Counted from the first letter of the stretch, positions 14,333-32,032 are shown. The stretch is DNA of 33,754 nucleotides from Bacilli bacterium (GCA_017625395.1 JAGALD010000010.1:1-33754); one strand, 5' to 3'. The notes: a model not told the origin generated them from the sequence alone. Translations and numbers: made by a program.

Positions 14333-15475
14333 ATGTTGGATGTTTTAGAATCCAGTGAACAAGAAAATTCATTTGATTATTTTAATGTCCAAAATATTTC
14401 ATTTGACCATCCTCTTACATCTTCTGAGATAGAAGAGTTTAGATCAATAGTATTTTCGTTAAATAATCTAAGACAAGTGTATTTTAAAGGAACTATAGAT
14501 GTTCCAAGTATTGAACTAGTTAAAAATTTAATGTCATTAGGTGGATATGTATTAGATGGAGCTGTAGAAAAATATATTGTTACCATATTATCACCAAATG
14601 ATATGAACAAAGTTCTTGAATCTAATTATGAAAATCCGGAAACATGGCAAATTGCATATGATCTTGATGATGAAAGTTTTGTATTAACTGATTTACCAAG
14701 TTGCAGAAGCTTTTTTGCATACATAAATAGAATAAAAACATTGGTTGAAAAAGAAGAATTAACTGATTTTGAAAAAGTGTTGCGTGTATATGACATCATA
14801 AAAACATATAATTTTGATGAATCATGCAGCGACTCACTTCAATTAGCAGAAATTGTTAAAAATCAAACCGCAGGATCAAAAGGATTTAATAAATTATTCT
14901 CATTTGTTTTATCACAACTAGGAATTAATAGTTTTGTAGGAAGAGAAAAAGACGCATCACAAAAGGAAACATATGTAACAATTGTAGATATTAAAGATGA
15001 TAAATATGGTGTTGATGGAATTTTCTTGTTTGATCCATCTATGGATTCACTACCTACAGATATATATAAAAGTGAAGATATTAGAAGAATAAATTATAAT
15101 TACTTTGGATTAGCTATATCAGATATTGACTATTCTTTATGTGGAGATATGTTAATTGGTGCACTAGGAATAATTGCTATAGAAGACTATGACTATAGCT
15201 TAGAAAGAAAAAAAACAAATAAAGATAATACGACATCAAAAGAATTTGAACAATTAAATAGATGTTTTTTACTTAAATATTCTGATCTTTTTCAAAGAGT
15301 TAAGAACTCTAAAACTATTCCTATAGATACGATTTGCACAGCAGTAAATAACATTTATGGGGAAAATGATAAAGTTGATGATTATGAAAGACTTTTAAAA
15401 GAAAATTATGAAGCTAGAAAAGAAGAACTTTTTAGTCCGAAAACAGAAGAAATTTTATGTAATTTATTAAAATGA
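14333..15475 (+). CDS. Unrecognised protein with a degenerate transglutaminase-like core
   Basis: 380 residues, no signal peptide or membrane segment, acidic. I do not recognise the whole protein. Residues about 140-240 follow the transglutaminase-like plan: a helix (TDFEKVLRVYDIIKTY), then AGSKGFNKLFSFVLSQLGI where active enzymes have GxCxGYAxxFxxLLxxLGI, then KETYVTIVDIKDDKYGVD and FDPSMD. In this alignment the catalytic Cys is Ser182 and the catalytic His position is not His, while the final Asp region remains. It is thus probably a non-catalytic binding module. It is the last gene of the hydrolase-murF-ddl operon, with GAGGGTGG before its ATG and a strong terminator after its TGA. A role with peptidoglycan precursors or cross-links is suggested by context only. 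The N-terminal 130 residues may form a separate alpha/beta domain. Confidence 0.55.
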   Translation: MLDVLESSEQENSFDYFNVQNISFDHPLTSSEIEEFRSIVFSLNNLRQVYFKGTIDVPSIELVKNLMSLGGYVLDGAVEKYIVTILSPNDMNKVLESNYENPETWQIAYDLDDESFVLTDLPSCRSFFAYINRIKTLVEKEELTDFEKVLRVYDIIKTYNFDESCSDSLQLAEIVKNQTAGSKGFNKLFSFVLSQLGINSFVGREKDASQKETYVTIVDIKDDKYGVDGIFLFDPSMDSLPTDIYKSEDIRRINYNYFGLAISDIDYSLCGDMLIGALGIIAIEDYDYSLERKKTNKDNTTSKEFEQLNRCFLLKYSDLFQRVKNSKTIPIDTICTAVNNIYGENDKVDDYERLLKENYEARKEELFSPKTEEILCNLLK

Positions 15476-22776: not shown

Positions 22777-23610
22777 ATGCCTGAAAAACCAGAGGTAATA
22801 ACAGTTGCAAAAAAATTAGAACAAAAAATTTTAAATAAAAAAATAAAGGGTGTTGATATATTATATCCAAACATTGTTTTATATCCAGATGTAGCAACTT
22901 TTAAAGAAAATATAAAAAATGAAAAAATTCAAAGTATTACTACACGTGGTAAATGGATAGTAATAGAGCTAATAAATAATTATTTATTATTTCACTTAAG
23001 AATGGAAGGAAAATTCTTCTTTAGAACAAAAGAAGATGAAATAAATAAGCATGAGCATGCAATATTTTATCTTGATGATGATACTGAATTAAGATTTGCA
23101 GATGTAAGAAAGTTTGCTAAGATCATGTTAATACCAAGAGATAAACTTTATACAATGAAGCCTTACACTGAACTAGGCTATGAACCATGGGATAAAAATT
23201 TAGATATAAAGTATTTAAAAGATAAATATCAAAAGAAAAATATTCCAATTAAAACATTATTACTTGATCAAAGCATAATAACAGGAATTGGAAATATCTA
23301 TGCAGATGAAATATTATTTTTATCAAATATAAATCCACTTACAAAAGCCTCTTCATTAACTGATGAAAACTTAGCTAGTATAATAAAAAATACAGTTAAA
23401 GTGTTAGATAAAGCAATTGAAGAAGGAGGAACTACTATTAGAAGTTATACCTCTGAAGAAGGAGTAACTGGACTTTTCCAAAATAGTCTTAACGTTCATC
23501 AAAGACAAAATGAAGAGTGTCGTATTTGTAAAAGTAAAATTATAAAAATAAAAGTAGGTGGAAGAGGGACCTATTATTGTCCAAAATGTCAAAAAGAAAA
23601 GGAGAACTAA
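22777..23610 (+). CDS. mutM: Formamidopyrimidine-DNA glycosylase (Fpg/MutM)
   Basis: 277 residues. After Met removal Pro2 is the catalytic nucleophile, with Glu3; the start reads MPEKPEV where most have MPELPEV. Lys59 in TTRGKW matches the conserved catalytic lysine of the N-terminal beta-sandwich. The H2TH region holds DQSIITGIGNIYADEILF, and the C-terminal zinc finger has Cys248, Cys251, Cys268 and Cys271 with Arg263 in GGRGTYYC. The enzyme excises 8-oxoguanine and formamidopyrimidines from DNA and nicks the abasic site. Start ATG 22777 with AGAGGTGA. It ends the polA operon and converges on the unrecognised minus-strand pair over a two-way terminator. Confidence 0.94.
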   Translation: MPEKPEVITVAKKLEQKILNKKIKGVDILYPNIVLYPDVATFKENIKNEKIQSITTRGKWIVIELINNYLLFHLRMEGKFFFRTKEDEINKHEHAIFYLDDDTELRFADVRKFAKIMLIPRDKLYTMKPYTELGYEPWDKNLDIKYLKDKYQKKNIPIKTLLLDQSIITGIGNIYADEILFLSNINPLTKASSLTDENLASIIKNTVKVLDKAIEEGGTTIRSYTSEEGVTGLFQNSLNVHQRQNEECRICKSKIIKIKVGGRGTYYCPKCQKEKEN

Positions 23611-23623
23611 AATTCTCCTTTTT
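23597..23623. terminator. Two-way terminator between mutM and the minus-strand pair
   Basis: AAAAGGAGAA (23597-23606) pairs with TTCTCCTTTT (23613-23622) around CTAAAA. The A-run on one side and T-run on the other let it serve both converging transcripts. Confidence 0.8.
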
Positions 23624-23624
23624 A

Positions 23625-24131
23625 TTATTCTGCAAGTTTCTTCGCTTTTGTTTTTTCTTTTTCTGCTTTTAATCTTTTTGTTCTATATCTATCAATCATT
23701 ATTAATCCTTTGTAGACTCTATCTTTTTCATCTGACTCATCATAAGCTTGTTTTGGTGTAACACAAGAGCTTTCTGCAAAATGAACCATTAAAGTACGCT
23801 TTAAGAAAATACTAGATTCCATATCTTGCAATAATCCTTCAATATTACCAAGTGCAATTTGTTCTCTAACATATGTTAAAGTTCTACTATCAGAAACATT
23901 TGATAAAACAATATTTTTTAATACCGCAAGTTGTAAATCTAACTCATTAGTACTATTCTTTAATGAACAAGTAGTATAGCTAGAAATAGAATCTTGAATA
24001 CTATCTTTTTCAATTGCAGTTTCTGCTGCAACTTCAGTACCATAAACATCAGATAATTCATTTAAATAAACTACAAAAAACTTTTCAGAAATATTTTGTT
24101 GTAATAGTGTTTCAATATTTTTATTACGCAT
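23625..24131 (-). CDS. Unrecognised protein, paralogue of the gene at 24124-24687
   Basis: 168 residues, mainly helical by composition, no membrane segment or signal peptide. I do not recognise a family. It aligns along most of its length with the 187-residue product just upstream: NISEKFFVVYLNELSDVYG with SFSEKYFRVFVGELIESYG, STNELDLQLAVLKNIVL with NLNELDLRLALLRAAVL, and a shared VTPKQAYDESDEKDRVYKGLIMIDRYR/TTPREVYERDDLERDEMRSLLLLDEYR segment. It ends in a strongly basic tail (RTKRLKAEKEKTKAKK). The pair overlap by eight bases and share one promoter. The ribosome site is AGAGGG about ten bases before the ATG. A cytoplasmic, perhaps nucleic-acid- or membrane-associated protein is possible, from the tail only. 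Confidence 0.7.
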   Translation of the reverse strand: MRNKNIETLLQQNISEKFFVVYLNELSDVYGTEVAAETAIEKDSIQDSISSYTTCSLKNSTNELDLQLAVLKNIVLSNVSDSRTLTYVREQIALGNIEGLLQDMESSIFLKRTLMVHFAESSCVTPKQAYDESDEKDRVYKGLIMIDRYRTKRLKAEKEKTKAKKLAE

Positions 24132-24687
24132 ATTTTTTATCCCTCTTTTTCTTTCTTTTTACATTTTCTATTTTTTTGTTTTGCTCTTTATTTCTATATT
24201 CATCTAGTAATAATAAACTTCTCATTTCATCTCTTTCTAAGTCATCTCTTTCATAAACTTCTCTAGGAGTTGTTGTATAATGATTTACAAAATTTCTAAT
24301 TAAAGAACTTTTTAAAGGATGATTAAAACTTAATGCTTGTACTAATTCTTCAATATCATTTTCGCTGATTTTTCTTCTAGTATATTCTAAATCAAAACCT
24401 TTTTCATCTTTGTATAAAACTGCAGCACGTAACAAAGCAAGTCTTAAATCAAGTTCATTTAAATTATTTGATAAATTAATATCAAGACTAACTGTATCTT
24501 TAATATTGTAACCTTCTGTTAGAACTCTTATTGTCTCTTCACTCCCATATGACTCAATTAATTCACCAACAAACACGCGAAAGTATTTTTCAGAAAAAGA
24601 TTCACTTGTTATTGTTTTTATTAATTCTTCATAATAAGGCTGTAATGCAAGTGCAATTTTATATCTAAGTTTATCCATAGATTTCAT
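24124..24687 (-). CDS. Unrecognised protein, paralogue of the gene at 23625-24131
   Basis: 187 residues, rich in Glu, Leu and Lys, no membrane segment. It is the first gene of a two-gene minus-strand operon, with GAGGTGAA before the ATG and a consensus-like promoter upstream. The middle (about 25-160) is the part shared with its downstream neighbour, with NELDLRLALLR as the clearest common motif. The C-terminus is a basic tail (KIENVKRKKKRDKK). Tandem position and end-to-end similarity indicate local duplication. No catalytic pattern (His, Cys, or acidic triads conserved between the two) is visible, which suggests a structural or binding role. Confidence 0.7.
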   Translation of the reverse strand: MKSMDKLRYKIALALQPYYEELIKTITSESFSEKYFRVFVGELIESYGSEETIRVLTEGYNIKDTVSLDINLSNNLNELDLRLALLRAAVLYKDEKGFDLEYTRRKISENDIEELVQALSFNHPLKSSLIRNFVNHYTTTPREVYERDDLERDEMRSLLLLDEYRNKEQNKKIENVKRKKKRDKKYA

Positions 24688-24717
24688 AATTCACCTCAAA
24701 CGTCAAAAAGTGTTGTA

Positions 24718-24746
24718 ATTATAACATGTTTCTTGTAAAAAGTCAA
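24718..24746 (-). promoter_or_regulatory. Promoter of the 24687/24131 minus-strand pair
   Basis: On the minus strand: TTGACT (24746-24741), 17-bp spacer, TATAAT (24723-24718), with TGT just upstream of the -10. One of the strongest promoter matches in the window. It overlaps the plus-strand truB promoter. Confidence 0.75.
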
Positions 24747-24761
24747 ATAAAGTGTGATAAT
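24733..24761 (+). promoter_or_regulatory. Promoter of truB, overlapping the divergent promoter
   Basis: TTGTAA (24733-24738), 17 bp, GATAAT (24756-24761) with TGT directly upstream (extended -10). Its -35 lies inside the spacer and -35 region of the opposite promoter, so the two cannot be occupied by polymerase at once. Confidence 0.6.
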
Positions 24762-24778
24762 AAGGCTAGGTGATTAAT

Positions 24779-25645
24779 ATGAATAATGGATTATTAGTAA
24801 TTGATAAGCCAAGTGGATATACAAGTAGAGATGTTGTAAATATTGTAAGTAGATTCTTTAATACTAGAAAAGTAGGGCATGCAGGAACTCTTGATCCGAT
24901 AGCAACAGGAGTTCTAGTAGTAGCAGTAAACGACGGACTAAAACTTCTTGAATACTTATCTGAAGAAGATAAAGAATATATTGCAACAGTAAAATTAGGA
25001 ATTACAACAGATACATTAGATGTATCAGGAAATATATTAGAAAAAAATGACAATTATTTTGTTGATCAATCTAAACTTAAAAGTGTAATTGAATCATTTA
25101 AAGGAAAATATCTTCAAGAAGTACCACTTTATTCATCAGTAAGAGTAAATGGAAAAAGATTATATAAATATGCAAGAGAAAAAGAAGAAGTAGTTCTTCC
25201 TAAAAGAGAAGTAGAAATATTTGACATTGAATTACTAGAAGTTAACCATGATGAATTTACTTTTAAAGCAAAAGTAAGTAAAGGAACTTATATAAGAAGT
25301 TTAATTAGAGATATTGGAGAAAAAATAAATCTTTTATGTACTATGAAAAATCTAAGAAGAACAAAACAAGGAATTTTTAGTTTAGAAGATTCAATTAGCA
25401 TTCAAGATATAGAAAATAATAGATTTAAATTTATTCCTTCAAAAAATCTTTTAAATAATTATCCAAAAGTTCAAGCTGATAGTGAAATGGAAAAGAAAAT
25501 TATAAATGGAGCTATCTTAGATAATATTTATGGACATGACACATTAATATTTGAAAATGATAAAGAATTACTAGCAATATACGGAATATATCAAAAAGAT
25601 AATTCCAAAATAAAACCTATTAAAGTATTTAAAAAAAGAGACTAA
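24779..25645 (+). CDS. truB: tRNA pseudouridine(55) synthase TruB
   Basis: 288 residues. The N-terminus NNGLLVIDKPSGYTSRDVV and the catalytic motif GHAGTLDPIATGVL (Asp39 nucleophile) identify TruB, which makes pseudouridine 55 in the T-loop of tRNAs. Further family motifs are VPLYSSVRVNGKRLYKYAR and KGTYIRSLIRDIGE. The C-terminal PUA-like region is present but degenerate. The start is ATG 24779 behind AGGTGA (24768-24773); GTG 24770 lies inside that ribosome site. The gene stands alone rather than in the usual infB-rbfA-truB-ribF group, flanked on both sides by unrecognised minus-strand gene pairs. Its TAA stop forms the loop of the terminator. Confidence 0.95.
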   Translation: MNNGLLVIDKPSGYTSRDVVNIVSRFFNTRKVGHAGTLDPIATGVLVVAVNDGLKLLEYLSEEDKEYIATVKLGITTDTLDVSGNILEKNDNYFVDQSKLKSVIESFKGKYLQEVPLYSSVRVNGKRLYKYAREKEEVVLPKREVEIFDIELLEVNHDEFTFKAKVSKGTYIRSLIRDIGEKINLLCTMKNLRRTKQGIFSLEDSISIQDIENNRFKFIPSKNLLNNYPKVQADSEMEKKIINGAILDNIYGHDTLIFENDKELLAIYGIYQKDNSKIKPIKVFKKRD

Positions 25646-25656
25646 GTCTCTTTTTT
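25632..25656. terminator. Two-way terminator between truB and the minus-strand gene
   Basis: GAGAC (25638-25642) pairs with GTCTC (25646-25650), extended by A-T pairs on both sides; the loop TAA is the truB stop. A-run and T-run flanks allow use from either strand. Confidence 0.8.
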
Positions 25657-26656
25657 AATTAGTATTATTACTTCCTTTATTTGTAACGCGTCTTTTTCTT
25701 AATGCTTTATTTTGAGCATGTTTTATCTTTCTATCGGTATTACCAACAAATTCTAGTATATGCTCTTGTTGTTCTAAATCTAAACCACTAAAAAAGGCTA
25801 GGTAATAAGGATTTTTTCTAAATCTATTATGAGTTGCTAAAATTCTCATAATTCTCATTTTCTTTTCATCTTTTTCTTTTTGTATTAAATCGAAAATTGC
25901 TTTTTTTCTATAGATACCATTATTTAATGCAGCATACATTACTTCTTTTACTTTATCAAAACTATCCTGACGTAATATTGCATCTTTTGCTCTTTGTCTT
26001 TTATCCAGTTTTGAAATATCATTTGGTTTTAGTTTTGGATCTACTTCATCAATTTGACTAGTAGAATTATCTAACATCAAACCAACTAGTTTTGCAGCTA
26101 TACAAGAAGAGTATGGCTCAACTTTTTCTAATAATTCGTTAGCTAAATCTAATAAAGAAGTAGGAAGGCTATCTCTTTTAATTATTTTTTCTACTAATGT
26201 TGGATTATGATATATAGAACTATATTTAATAAGTTCTAATCTATTTAATTTATCAGGAAGACTAGAATTAATTAAAAGATTAATAATTTGTCTATTATAT
26301 TTTGCATTATCAAAATTATTATCTAGAAGAATATATTTATCCAAATATGAAACTCCGATTAGTCCAACAAGTAAATCCTCTTTATTTACGTCATTGGCAT
26401 AATCATGAAAAGCTTTTGTTAATGTAAAAGAATCAAGTTTAGTAAGTGCTAGAAATTGTTCTCTAGTTAATTCAAGCGCACTCAAGTGACTTAAAAGTGG
26501 AGACATCTTTCTAATATCAGACTTTAACCATTCACGTAAATCTTCAAGCTTTAAATCTTCTTTACAATTTTCTAAAATAAGTCTTTCTTCATTACTTAAT
26601 TCTACTTTTCTTCCTTCTAAATACCATGTAAAAGTTCTTTTATCTTTATTTTCCAT
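25655..26656 (-). CDS. Unrecognised helical protein, paralogue of the gene at 26674-27810
   Basis: 333 residues, no signal peptide or membrane segment; I do not recognise a family. It appears mostly helical, with repeated Leu spacing of the kind seen in helical-repeat proteins. It matches its upstream neighbour at several points: LEDLREWLKSDIRKMSPLLS with LKDLIDWLNSDIRRSERALC, RAKDAILRQDSFDKVKEVMY with RAKKAIISQDNASSANQVMH, GIYRKKAIFDLI with GIYQNKELFELI, and HNRFRKNPYYLAFFSGLDLEQQEHIL with YNRFKKDMDFVRSFSELDVLEQKRIL. The C-terminus is basic (KALRKRRVTNKG). The ribosome site AAAGGTGA precedes the ATG in the 17-bp gap between the two genes, so they form an operon. It converges with truB. Confidence 0.7.
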   Translation of the reverse strand: MENKDKRTFTWYLEGRKVELSNEERLILENCKEDLKLEDLREWLKSDIRKMSPLLSHLSALELTREQFLALTKLDSFTLTKAFHDYANDVNKEDLLVGLIGVSYLDKYILLDNNFDNAKYNRQIINLLINSSLPDKLNRLELIKYSSIYHNPTLVEKIIKRDSLPTSLLDLANELLEKVEPYSSCIAAKLVGLMLDNSTSQIDEVDPKLKPNDISKLDKRQRAKDAILRQDSFDKVKEVMYAALNNGIYRKKAIFDLIQKEKDEKKMRIMRILATHNRFRKNPYYLAFFSGLDLEQQEHILEFVGNTDRKIKHAQNKALRKRRVTNKGSNNTN

Positions 26657-26673
26657 AAAGTCACCTTTAATAA

Positions 26674-27810
26674 CTAGATTCTGTTATTTCCTTTTCTTTT
26701 AATAAGCTTTCTAGTAGTAAGACCATTTTTATCATCAAGCTCACGTAATGCTCTAAATGCTCTTATTTGGCTTAACATGCCTTCTTCTGTAACAAAGGTA
26801 TCTAGGACGCTGTTAAGCTTTTCTTGTTGTTTATTTTGTCTAGCAATTCTATATTCTCTTTCTTTATTCATTTGGGCTATTTCGTTATCCCTAATATCTT
26901 TTAAAATACGTTTTTGTTCTAATACATCAAGTTCGCTAAAACTTCTAACAAAATCCATATCTTTTTTAAATCTATTATACTGACATAAATATATAACATT
27001 ATGCATTTGCATAGGAGTAGGTAAAGATATAATTAATTCAAAAAGCTCCTTATTTTGATATATTCCTCTTAATAGAGAAGCATGCATAACTTGATTTGCA
27101 CTACTTGCATTATCTTGACTAATTATAGCTTTCTTAGCTCTTTCCATTGTCTCTAATCTTTTAATACTTTCTTCTGATACAAGCGGTTCAAATGTACCAT
27201 TATCTAATTCATGGTCACTAGATGCTAAAATATATTCTACATATCTACCAATAATATCTGATGGTAAGTCTCTATAGTATTCAAGTAGATGCTCCATACT
27301 TAATAATTGATTTTCGCTTATAAAATACTCTGATAAAACTTTATTTCTAACTTTTTGATTGCTATAAACAGGAAGAGAAGAAATAATACCAAGTCTAGCA
27401 TCTCTATCGCTTGAATTTAATAACTTTCTAATAATTTTTCTGTTTAATTCCTTTTTTCCTTTTGAATTCATTGATTTATCTTTCTTAGAAGTTTCTTTTA
27501 AAATAGCAGTAGCAATTAAAGAAAAAGCTAAATCTTCATCATTATCATTTACGCGATAATTTAATACATCTTGTATATCATTTTTATTTAACGTTAATAA
27601 TTGTCTAAATTGTTCTTTGTTAATTTCTACATTAGAAAACATACAAAGTGCTCTTTCACTTCTTCTAATATCAGAATTAAGCCAATCGATTAGATCTTTA
27701 AGTTCTATATCATCAGGTGTATTTAAAAGAAATTGTTTCTCCATAAAAGATAAATAAATATTATTTTGTACTACATATGATAAAAATTGTTCTAAAACTG
27801 TATAAGTCAT
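26674..27810 (-). CDS. Unrecognised helical protein, paralogue of the gene at 25655-26656
   Basis: 378 residues, first gene of a minus-strand pair. No known family recognised, no membrane segment. The N-terminal block (about 20-60) contains LKDLIDWLNSDIRRSERAL, the middle holds RAKKAIISQDN and GIYQNKELFELI, both shared with the downstream paralogue. The last 90 residues are a charged, likely coiled-coil stretch (MNKEREYRIARQNKQQEK) plus a basic end (RKLIKRKGNNR). I set the start at 27810, directly after GAGGGGGA; the frame is open for 11 more codons upstream, but those would include the ribosome site. It diverges from the hisS T-box leader and has its own promoter. The two minus-strand pairs share a layout: longer copy first, shorter copy second, basic C-terminal tails. 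Confidence 0.7.
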   Translation of the reverse strand: MTYTVLEQFLSYVVQNNIYLSFMEKQFLLNTPDDIELKDLIDWLNSDIRRSERALCMFSNVEINKEQFRQLLTLNKNDIQDVLNYRVNDNDEDLAFSLIATAILKETSKKDKSMNSKGKKELNRKIIRKLLNSSDRDARLGIISSLPVYSNQKVRNKVLSEYFISENQLLSMEHLLEYYRDLPSDIIGRYVEYILASSDHELDNGTFEPLVSEESIKRLETMERAKKAIISQDNASSANQVMHASLLRGIYQNKELFELIISLPTPMQMHNVIYLCQYNRFKKDMDFVRSFSELDVLEQKRILKDIRDNEIAQMNKEREYRIARQNKQQEKLNSVLDTFVTEEGMLSQIRAFRALRELDDKNGLTTRKLIKRKGNNRI

Positions 27811-27833: not shown

Positions 27834-27862
27834 ATTTTATCACATTTTTAAAATTTTTTCAA
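27834..27862 (-). promoter_or_regulatory. Promoter of the 27810/26656 minus-strand pair
   Basis: On the minus strand: TTGAAA (27862-27857), 17-bp spacer, TAAAAT (27839-27834), TGA directly upstream of the -10. Confidence 0.65.
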
Positions 27863-27904: not shown

Positions 27905-28098
27905 TAACTTCTGGCAAAAAGAGTAGTTTGTATAAATATTCTAGAGAGAGTATGTTTGGTGAAAATACTTATATTTAGCTTATGAAAGACATTTGCTATA
28001 TGGAAGAGTCGTGTATTCGCGTTAAGAATTTAAGCATAATTTATTATGGAATTAAGGTGGCACCGCGATTATTTCGCCCTTATGTTGCTACCTTTTTT
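27905..28098 (+). promoter_or_regulatory. T-box riboswitch controlling hisS-aspS, with overlapping Asp/His specifier
   Basis: The leader has the T-box landmarks in order: AAGAGTAG, AGAGAG (27943-27950 region), TTTGGTGAAA, the specifier context GAAAGACAT, a GGAAGAG segment, a small stem III (CATAA 28035-28039 with TTATG 28044-28048), and the T-box AAGGTGGCACCGCG (28054-28067). The antiterminator forms AAGG/CCTT (28054-28057 with 28078-28081) and GCGA/TCGC (28065-28068 with 28074-28077), leaving the classic 7-base bulge TGGCACC. The competing terminator pairs AAGGTGGCA (28054-28062) with TGCTACCTT (28086-28094), then six T. By position the specifier is GAC (27988-27990, Asp); CAT (27990-27992, His) overlaps it by one base. 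The bulge UGGC pairs with a GCCA tRNA end, which fits tRNA-Asp (discriminator G) and not tRNA-His (discriminator C). Uncharged tRNA would favour read-through into the synthetase genes. Confidence 0.9.
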
Positions 28099-31273: not shown

Positions 31274-32032
31274 TTATTTCAAAAATTCAAAAATAATTTT
31301 CATAACATAAAAAGAAGCATCTAAATAAACATAATGAAAAGCATTTTTTACTATTACTAATCCTGAATCAGAAATTAATCTATTCATTAAAATTCCATCT
31401 TTTAATGGTGTATCTTGATCCTTTTCACCCCAAATTATTAAAGTTTCAGTTTTAATATCTTTTAAATAATCTGTTAAATCTTCGTTAACAATATTAGAGA
31501 AAGTATGTCTCATATTATTATTTAAATCTTTATAATCACTGGATGCAAAAATATTAAGTAATTTTTTTAAATACCTTTCTTTCATTTTTTTTGGCATTAT
31601 TAATGAAAATTTCTTTAATATCTTGTAACAAGTCTGCCTTAACAATTTAATTAGATTTTTTTTCTTTTTAATACCTGCACCATCCATAATTATCATTTTT
31701 TTAATTTTTATTTTTTCAATAGTACTTAATAATATAGAAAGTCTGCAGCCAAAAGAATGAGCAATAATAATTGGATTTTCTATTTTTATCTTTCTTATAA
31801 AAAGACTAATTAACTTTGCATAGTCATATATTGTTAAGTCTTTATCTAAAAAAGTACTTTTACCAAAACCAGGGTAATCTAAAATATATACAGTATACTT
31901 TTTCTTCAATTCATTAATCATTGAATAAAATGTTTTTCGTGTATCTCCCCAACCAGGAAGTATTAATATATTTTGCTCTTTATCACCATATTTCTCATAA
32001 TATATATCATATCCGTTAATATTTATATTCAT
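31274..32032 (-). CDS. Alpha/beta hydrolase, paralogue of the 10775 gene
   Basis: 252 residues, soluble alpha/beta hydrolase. Ser93 in AHSFGC is the nucleophile, Asp205 in WGEKDQD the acid and His233 in NAFHYVYLD the base. It matches the hydrolase at 10775-11497 through most of its length, including LTIYDYAKL/LTIYDYCEI, SSDYKDLNNNMRHTFSNIVNEDL/SRDYRNASEMMRKILVNTVNEDL and SDSGLVIVKNAFHYVYLD/KDAGLVVYDNGTHYAYLE. The cap is longer and very Lys-rich. The shared cap segment (VNEDL) suggests similar substrates, which are unknown. AGGTGAAG precedes the ATG. Single gene between aspS (converging) and pyk (diverging); no clear promoter could be picked out in its AT-rich upstream region. Confidence 0.82.
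   Translation of the reverse strand: MNININGYDIYYEKYGDKEQNILILPGWGDTRKTFYSMINELKKKYTVYILDYPGFGKSTFLDKDLTIYDYAKLISLFIRKIKIENPIIIAHSFGCRLSILLSTIEKIKIKKMIIMDGAGIKKKKNLIKLLRQTCYKILKKFSLIMPKKMKERYLKKLLNIFASSDYKDLNNNMRHTFSNIVNEDLTDYLKDIKTETLIIWGEKDQDTPLKDGILMNRLISDSGLVIVKNAFHYVYLDASFYVMKIIFEFLK

Follow-up and report, generated by a model that had tools for sequence, protein, structure and literature searches.

What are the four adjacent minus-strand genes that surround truB in this stretch of DNA from an uncultured gut bacterium, and how far does either of the two families they form extend beyond it? The window, that is, the whole 33,754-nucleotide stretch that was analysed, comes from a 1.49-Mb metagenome-assembled genome (MAG) of the class Bacilli (labelled G000 in the comparisons), and the named records near this genome are gut MAGs, from rumen and rabbit among other sources. 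A sequence-only reading had singled out the four genes as two tandem pairs of paralogues, here called A1-A2 and B1-B2, that belong to no recognised family. An ORF check recovered all four at the same coordinates and lengths (Table 1), and truB proved to be the sole gene between the two pairs, as had been proposed, divergent from A and convergent with B. The further remark that the surroundings are otherwise plus-strand was only partly accurate, since the pairs do flank truB but an alpha/beta-hydrolase gene of the window is likewise encoded on the minus strand. Elsewhere in the window, a 380-aa plus-strand ORF (14333-15475) without a Pfam match at E 0.001 lies between the gene for D-Ala-D-Ala ligase and that for a protein with an N-methylation motif (pilin-like).

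Table 1. Features of the truB region, in window coordinates
Feature	Position	Strand	Description
Terminator-like hairpin, mutM/A2 gap	23597-23623	both	bidirectional
A2	23625-24131	-	ORF, 168 aa, A1 paralogue
A1	24124-24687	-	ORF, 187 aa, predicted all-helical, first gene of operon A
Sigma-A-type promoter, operon A	24718-24746	-	TTGACT-17-TATAAT, extended TG; 11/12 consensus matches
truB promoter-like site	24733-24761	+	TTGTAA-17-GATAAT; 9/12, consensus scan only
truB	24770-25645	+	tRNA pseudouridine synthase B; Pfam TruB_N E 3.7e-53
Terminator-like hairpin, convergent truB/B2	25632-25656	+ (as reported)	
B2	25655-26656	-	ORF, 333 aa, B1 paralogue
B1	26674-27810	-	ORF, 378 aa, predicted helical, first gene of operon B
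Operon B promoter-like site	27834-27862	-	TTGAAA-17-TAAAAT, extended TG; 10/12, consensus scan only
Alpha/beta-hydrolase gene	31274-32032	-	

Both pairs consist of true paralogues, with 34% identity over 148 residues between A1 and A2 (E 2e-17) and 32% identity over 298 residues between B1 and B2 (E 1e-34), values far past anything that chance similarity, the outcome that would have undone the proposal, could account for. Other parts of the initial description had to be adjusted. The similarity within the pairs does not run from end to end in B, where it ceases near residue 303 and leaves about 75 residues at the end of B1 without a B2 counterpart; the basic tails are present in the sequence, but the proteins as a whole have net charges (K+R minus D+E) of 0, -2, +1 and +8 for A1, A2, B1 and B2, respectively. 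The reading frames of A1 and A2 overlap by 8 nt, and B1 and B2 are separated by 17 nt. The ATG start of B1 is preceded by a strong Shine-Dalgarno sequence, GAGGGGG, while an upstream GTG at 27843 would extend the protein to 389 aa. The strong promoter that had been assigned to every gene turned out to be one for each pair, as the best promoter-like sites before A2 and before B2 are no better than those in shuffled sequence and neither gene has a credible promoter of its own. Four terminators were found in the region against 0.8 expected, and the hairpin between truB and B2 could, given its A/T flanks, serve both strands. The four ORFs are thus best described as two predicted two-gene operons, A1-A2 and B1-B2, with one promoter each.

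The view of the region as two duplicated pairs was refined by comparison with relatives, in which A is kept genus-wide at the same place and mostly as a single copy, whereas B was seen in the window genome only. When the truB loci of ten congeners were compared by the ORFs around truB, a gene of 150-200 aa on the strand opposite truB was found in nine of them, and wherever mutM and truB share a contig this gene lies between them. Counting all truB-bearing genomes of the genus, A is present in 10 of 11, in one or two copies and in the same place; a profile search of 12 genus genomes found it in 10, with no truB contig in G007 and no A in G011, where the mutM-truB interval is rearranged. Outside the genus, the profile returned only 15-21-bit matches inside unrelated larger proteins among 243 genomes of the family, and those in G124, G031 and G188 were rejected on this ground. 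A was absent where 28 truB loci of the family were partly inspected, 71 mutM loci from outside the genus showed no A protein, and mutM directly adjoins truB with no A in sister genera (G118 and G090, for example). In the sampled genomes, family A is therefore restricted to the genus.

A single copy being usual in the genus, the A pair goes back to a gene shared across the genus that was duplicated locally and recently. Two copies occur in the window genome and in G002; in the A tree, A1 groups with A2 as its sister (support 100/99) and the G002 pair is joined as well, with weaker support (89/91), so tandem duplication took place at least two times, independently. Sequence conservation among the members is low, with pairwise identities mostly between 13 and 34% (the two closest pairs reach 63% and 82%), as against 60-70% for TruB and 72-78% for MutM when congeners are compared with the window proteins. 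G48 is the only invariant residue among the 12 A proteins, L91 and L129 being nearly invariant, and yet length and place are preserved at about 20% identity. The dN/dS ratios of A (NG86) are about 0.35 (G010/G005) and 0.59 (G008/G009), and those of mutM, truB, polA and hisS in the same comparison range from 0.05 to 0.13. By this estimate, A is under purifying selection that is looser than that on its neighbours; with ratios above theirs yet below 1, it behaves as a constrained but fast-drifting gene.

What has not drifted is the promoter element ahead of it. The -35 hexamer TTGACT (AGTCAA in the orientation of truB) is invariant ahead of all ten A transcription units in ten genomes, with a TATAAT-like -10 element downstream of it in most of these. 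In the window, the truB promoter-like site, as read from the sequence, lies back to back with the A promoter and overlaps it, and the same arrangement recurs in G002 with TTGAAA-17-TATTAT. The spacer between A and truB is longer in G006, G008 and G009, so the promoters need not overlap there. Where they do overlap, the A and truB promoters may compete with each other. In G001, the invariant hexamer fronts a 293-aa gene (L017:5644-6525) that is followed by A; this gene has no Pfam match, and its product may carry a phage-associated nuclease-type (PBECR-like) domain.

Family B has a much narrower record. A single-protein search of 59 relatives did not find it beyond the host genome, and a profile search of 243 family, 12 genus and 395 class genomes gave only weak repeat-like matches; one in G193 was rejected, as it falls in a DUF1848 protein. 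So far, B has been found only in its own species, and since MAG sampling is incomplete it may occur in unsampled relatives. The interval between truB and hisS in which it lies is variable within the genus: G001 and G005 have nothing there, whereas G006 carries an RsgA-like GTPase, G008 and G009 a collagen/beta-helix protein, G003 a 376-aa protein together with a LysM-like protein, and G010 a 385-aa protein. The G008 protein (L015:6973-7959) combines a collagen-like part with a right-handed beta-helix, and its counterpart in G009 (L016:8941-9801) is split into two ORFs, perhaps by a frameshift or as a pseudogene. A reading of B as a mobile cassette was discarded, because the repeats in the interval reflect the B1/B2 duplication alone and no flanking repeats were seen.

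On the far side of B in the window, a T-box leader (27907-28084; RF00230, 93.9 bits) precedes hisS-aspS. The hisS ORF of annotated length, starting at 28046, overlaps this leader, so that the true start is probably 28118. The leader reads TGGC, which fits G73 of tRNA-Asp, and its probable specifier region has the sequence GACAT, where an Asp codon and a His codon overlap.

No recognisable family emerged for either pair, in agreement with the sequence-only reading. Searches of Pfam, NCBIfam, PHROGs and PADLOC with the four proteins and the 12-member A family gave only marginal, single-member or chance matches (E 0.0015-0.0077 for the single-member PADLOC matches), the best PDB sequence profiles reached E 1.6 and 0.11, and no relatives of A or B were found among phages, plasmids or viral contigs; the profile and structure searches, viral structures included, thus contained no clear match to a characterised family. 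For A, AlphaFold run with a 12-row alignment gave a confident model of A1 (pLDDT 90.3, pTM 0.84) with ten helices, the last of which enters the basic tail, and A is accordingly predicted to be an all-helical protein. Foldseek found no match to this model at E<=0.001 in the PDB or among viral structures (BFVD), and the best Z in VIA-align was 3.9, although the absence of a match does not prove the fold new.

The two-sequence AlphaFold model of B, at a pLDDT of 66, is too weak to rely on, and Foldseek found no PDB match to it at E<=0.001. Its C-terminal part (residues 212-315) is modelled, with low confidence, as an alpha-helical repeat, and about 70-100 residues of it align with TAL repeats and designed helical repeats (Z 4-7), the best VIA-align value (7.0) being against designed repeats; a likeness of this size to proteins built of 31-33-aa hairpin repeats may reflect a common arrangement only. 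In the sister-genus genome G091 (C32:26979-29352, corresponding to L066:2980-5353), we came across tandem genes for 394- and 398-aa proteins made of helical repeats of about 31 aa, which share 56% identity with each other, overlap by 8 nt and have no credible Pfam family. Their repeats resemble residues of about 224-317 of B by weak profile similarity. A summed value of 3.5e-13 made the kinship look strong, but five matches fall on one region of the profile; with a profile of the G091 repeats only, B2 ranked first among shuffles at a mere E of 0.026 and B1 was missed. We regard the resemblance as a weak lead.

Could all four genes descend from one ancestor, with B as an enlarged A? We compared the families with hhalign, using 200 column shuffles and 320 real proteins as controls. 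The best-conserved stretch of A (I-x-D-S-L ... D-I-x3-L-L-x2-A-x-L) aligns with residues 73-106 of B1 at E 0.0043-0.011 and a probability of 4-8%, a score that exceeds 200 of 200 shuffles and all 320 control proteins. The margins, however, are narrow (24.22 against 24.16 for the best shuffle, and 25.54 against 25.17 for an unrelated helical control, which we take to be a TmcAL-like nucleotidyltransferase), B2 alone scores at the control median, and B is absent from the hmmsearch output for the A profile at E<=1. With an unrelated helical protein scoring about as well, the comparison of the two families did not establish that they are related, and we consider a common origin unlikely.

The simplest dismissal, that the ORFs are spurious or an assembly artefact, could appeal to the occurrence of B in a single MAG. 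It is next to negligible given the conservation of the B paralogues at the protein level (E 1e-34), a codon-position GC that resembles that of the neighbours, the presence of Shine-Dalgarno sites and promoters, and the orthologous flanks in the genus; for A it is already refuted. A toxin-antitoxin pair was likewise ruled out, because the partners in each operon are paralogues of each other, and most species have only one copy of A. As with many divergently encoded regulators, A might instead be a DNA- or RNA-binding regulator of the divergent truB promoter, a role that would suit its conserved place opposite truB, the promoter overlap in several species and the basic tails. Its low-Z structural matches do include TetR-family helix-turn-helix proteins, but at Z of about 3 these do not exceed what helical models reach by chance, and Pfam contains no helix-turn-helix family that matches A. 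Drift to about 20% identity would moreover be unusual for a protein that reads a conserved site, and in G001 another gene intervenes between the promoter and A, so that the regulator reading seems doubtful.

Conflict with phages or mobile elements, whether as defence or counter-defence, would explain both the fast drift and the tandem duplications: the omega of A is several-fold above that of its neighbours, its duplication is repeated, identity within the genus falls as low as it does, and the gene content of the truB-hisS interval varies. Yet PADLOC and PHROG gave only marginal, single-member matches, the searches for phage, plasmid and viral-contig relatives came back empty, and a fixed position in the core genome behind a constant promoter is unlike mobile defence islands; we judge this explanation quite improbable. 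The reading that we prefer, with a probability of about 0.55, is that A and B are taxonomically restricted, soluble, cytosolic proteins, all-alpha and non-enzymatic, whose C-terminal tails are basic and which would serve as binding or adaptor proteins for lineage-specific partners. A binding role is suggested by the combination of an all-helical fold, only one invariant residue and a loose constraint on sequence with a strict constraint on promoter and place; that A has no invariant polar residue counts against an enzyme, without excluding one.

Under this binding or adaptor reading, the A pair arose when a gene that most of the genus keeps as one copy was duplicated locally, and B would either have been acquired by the host species or have disappeared from others, in an interval between truB and hisS whose content varies. 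Duplication may yield two related subunits, perhaps of a hetero-oligomer, and the expression of A and truB may be weakly coupled through their overlapping back-to-back promoter-like sites in several species. A bolder and very unlikely extension would make A a fast-drifting helical adaptor whose fold the PDB does not yet contain and whose synthesis, from a fixed strong promoter, competes with that of TruB through the promoter overlap; with B, it would add a layer, specific to the genus, to tRNA modification or to phage conflict.

Clusters of taxonomically restricted (orphan) genes have been described in Bacillus (PMC10003748), and the FESNov catalogue lists 404,085 novel families from uncultivated taxa (PMC10849945). 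A and B appear to be new families of this ordinary, known kind, clade-restricted and set in a conserved context; they share with the published families a clade known from MAGs, the lack of a curated family match, purifying selection and conserved context. Unlike ordinary clustered families, however, A has diverged within a genus to about 20% identity, too far for clustering to join its members. Their orthology is exposed by synteny and an invariant promoter element and not by protein sequence, and ordinary similarity searches would label them unrelated orphans. Such cases bear on what share of bacterial orphans are fast-diverging old genes as opposed to new ones.
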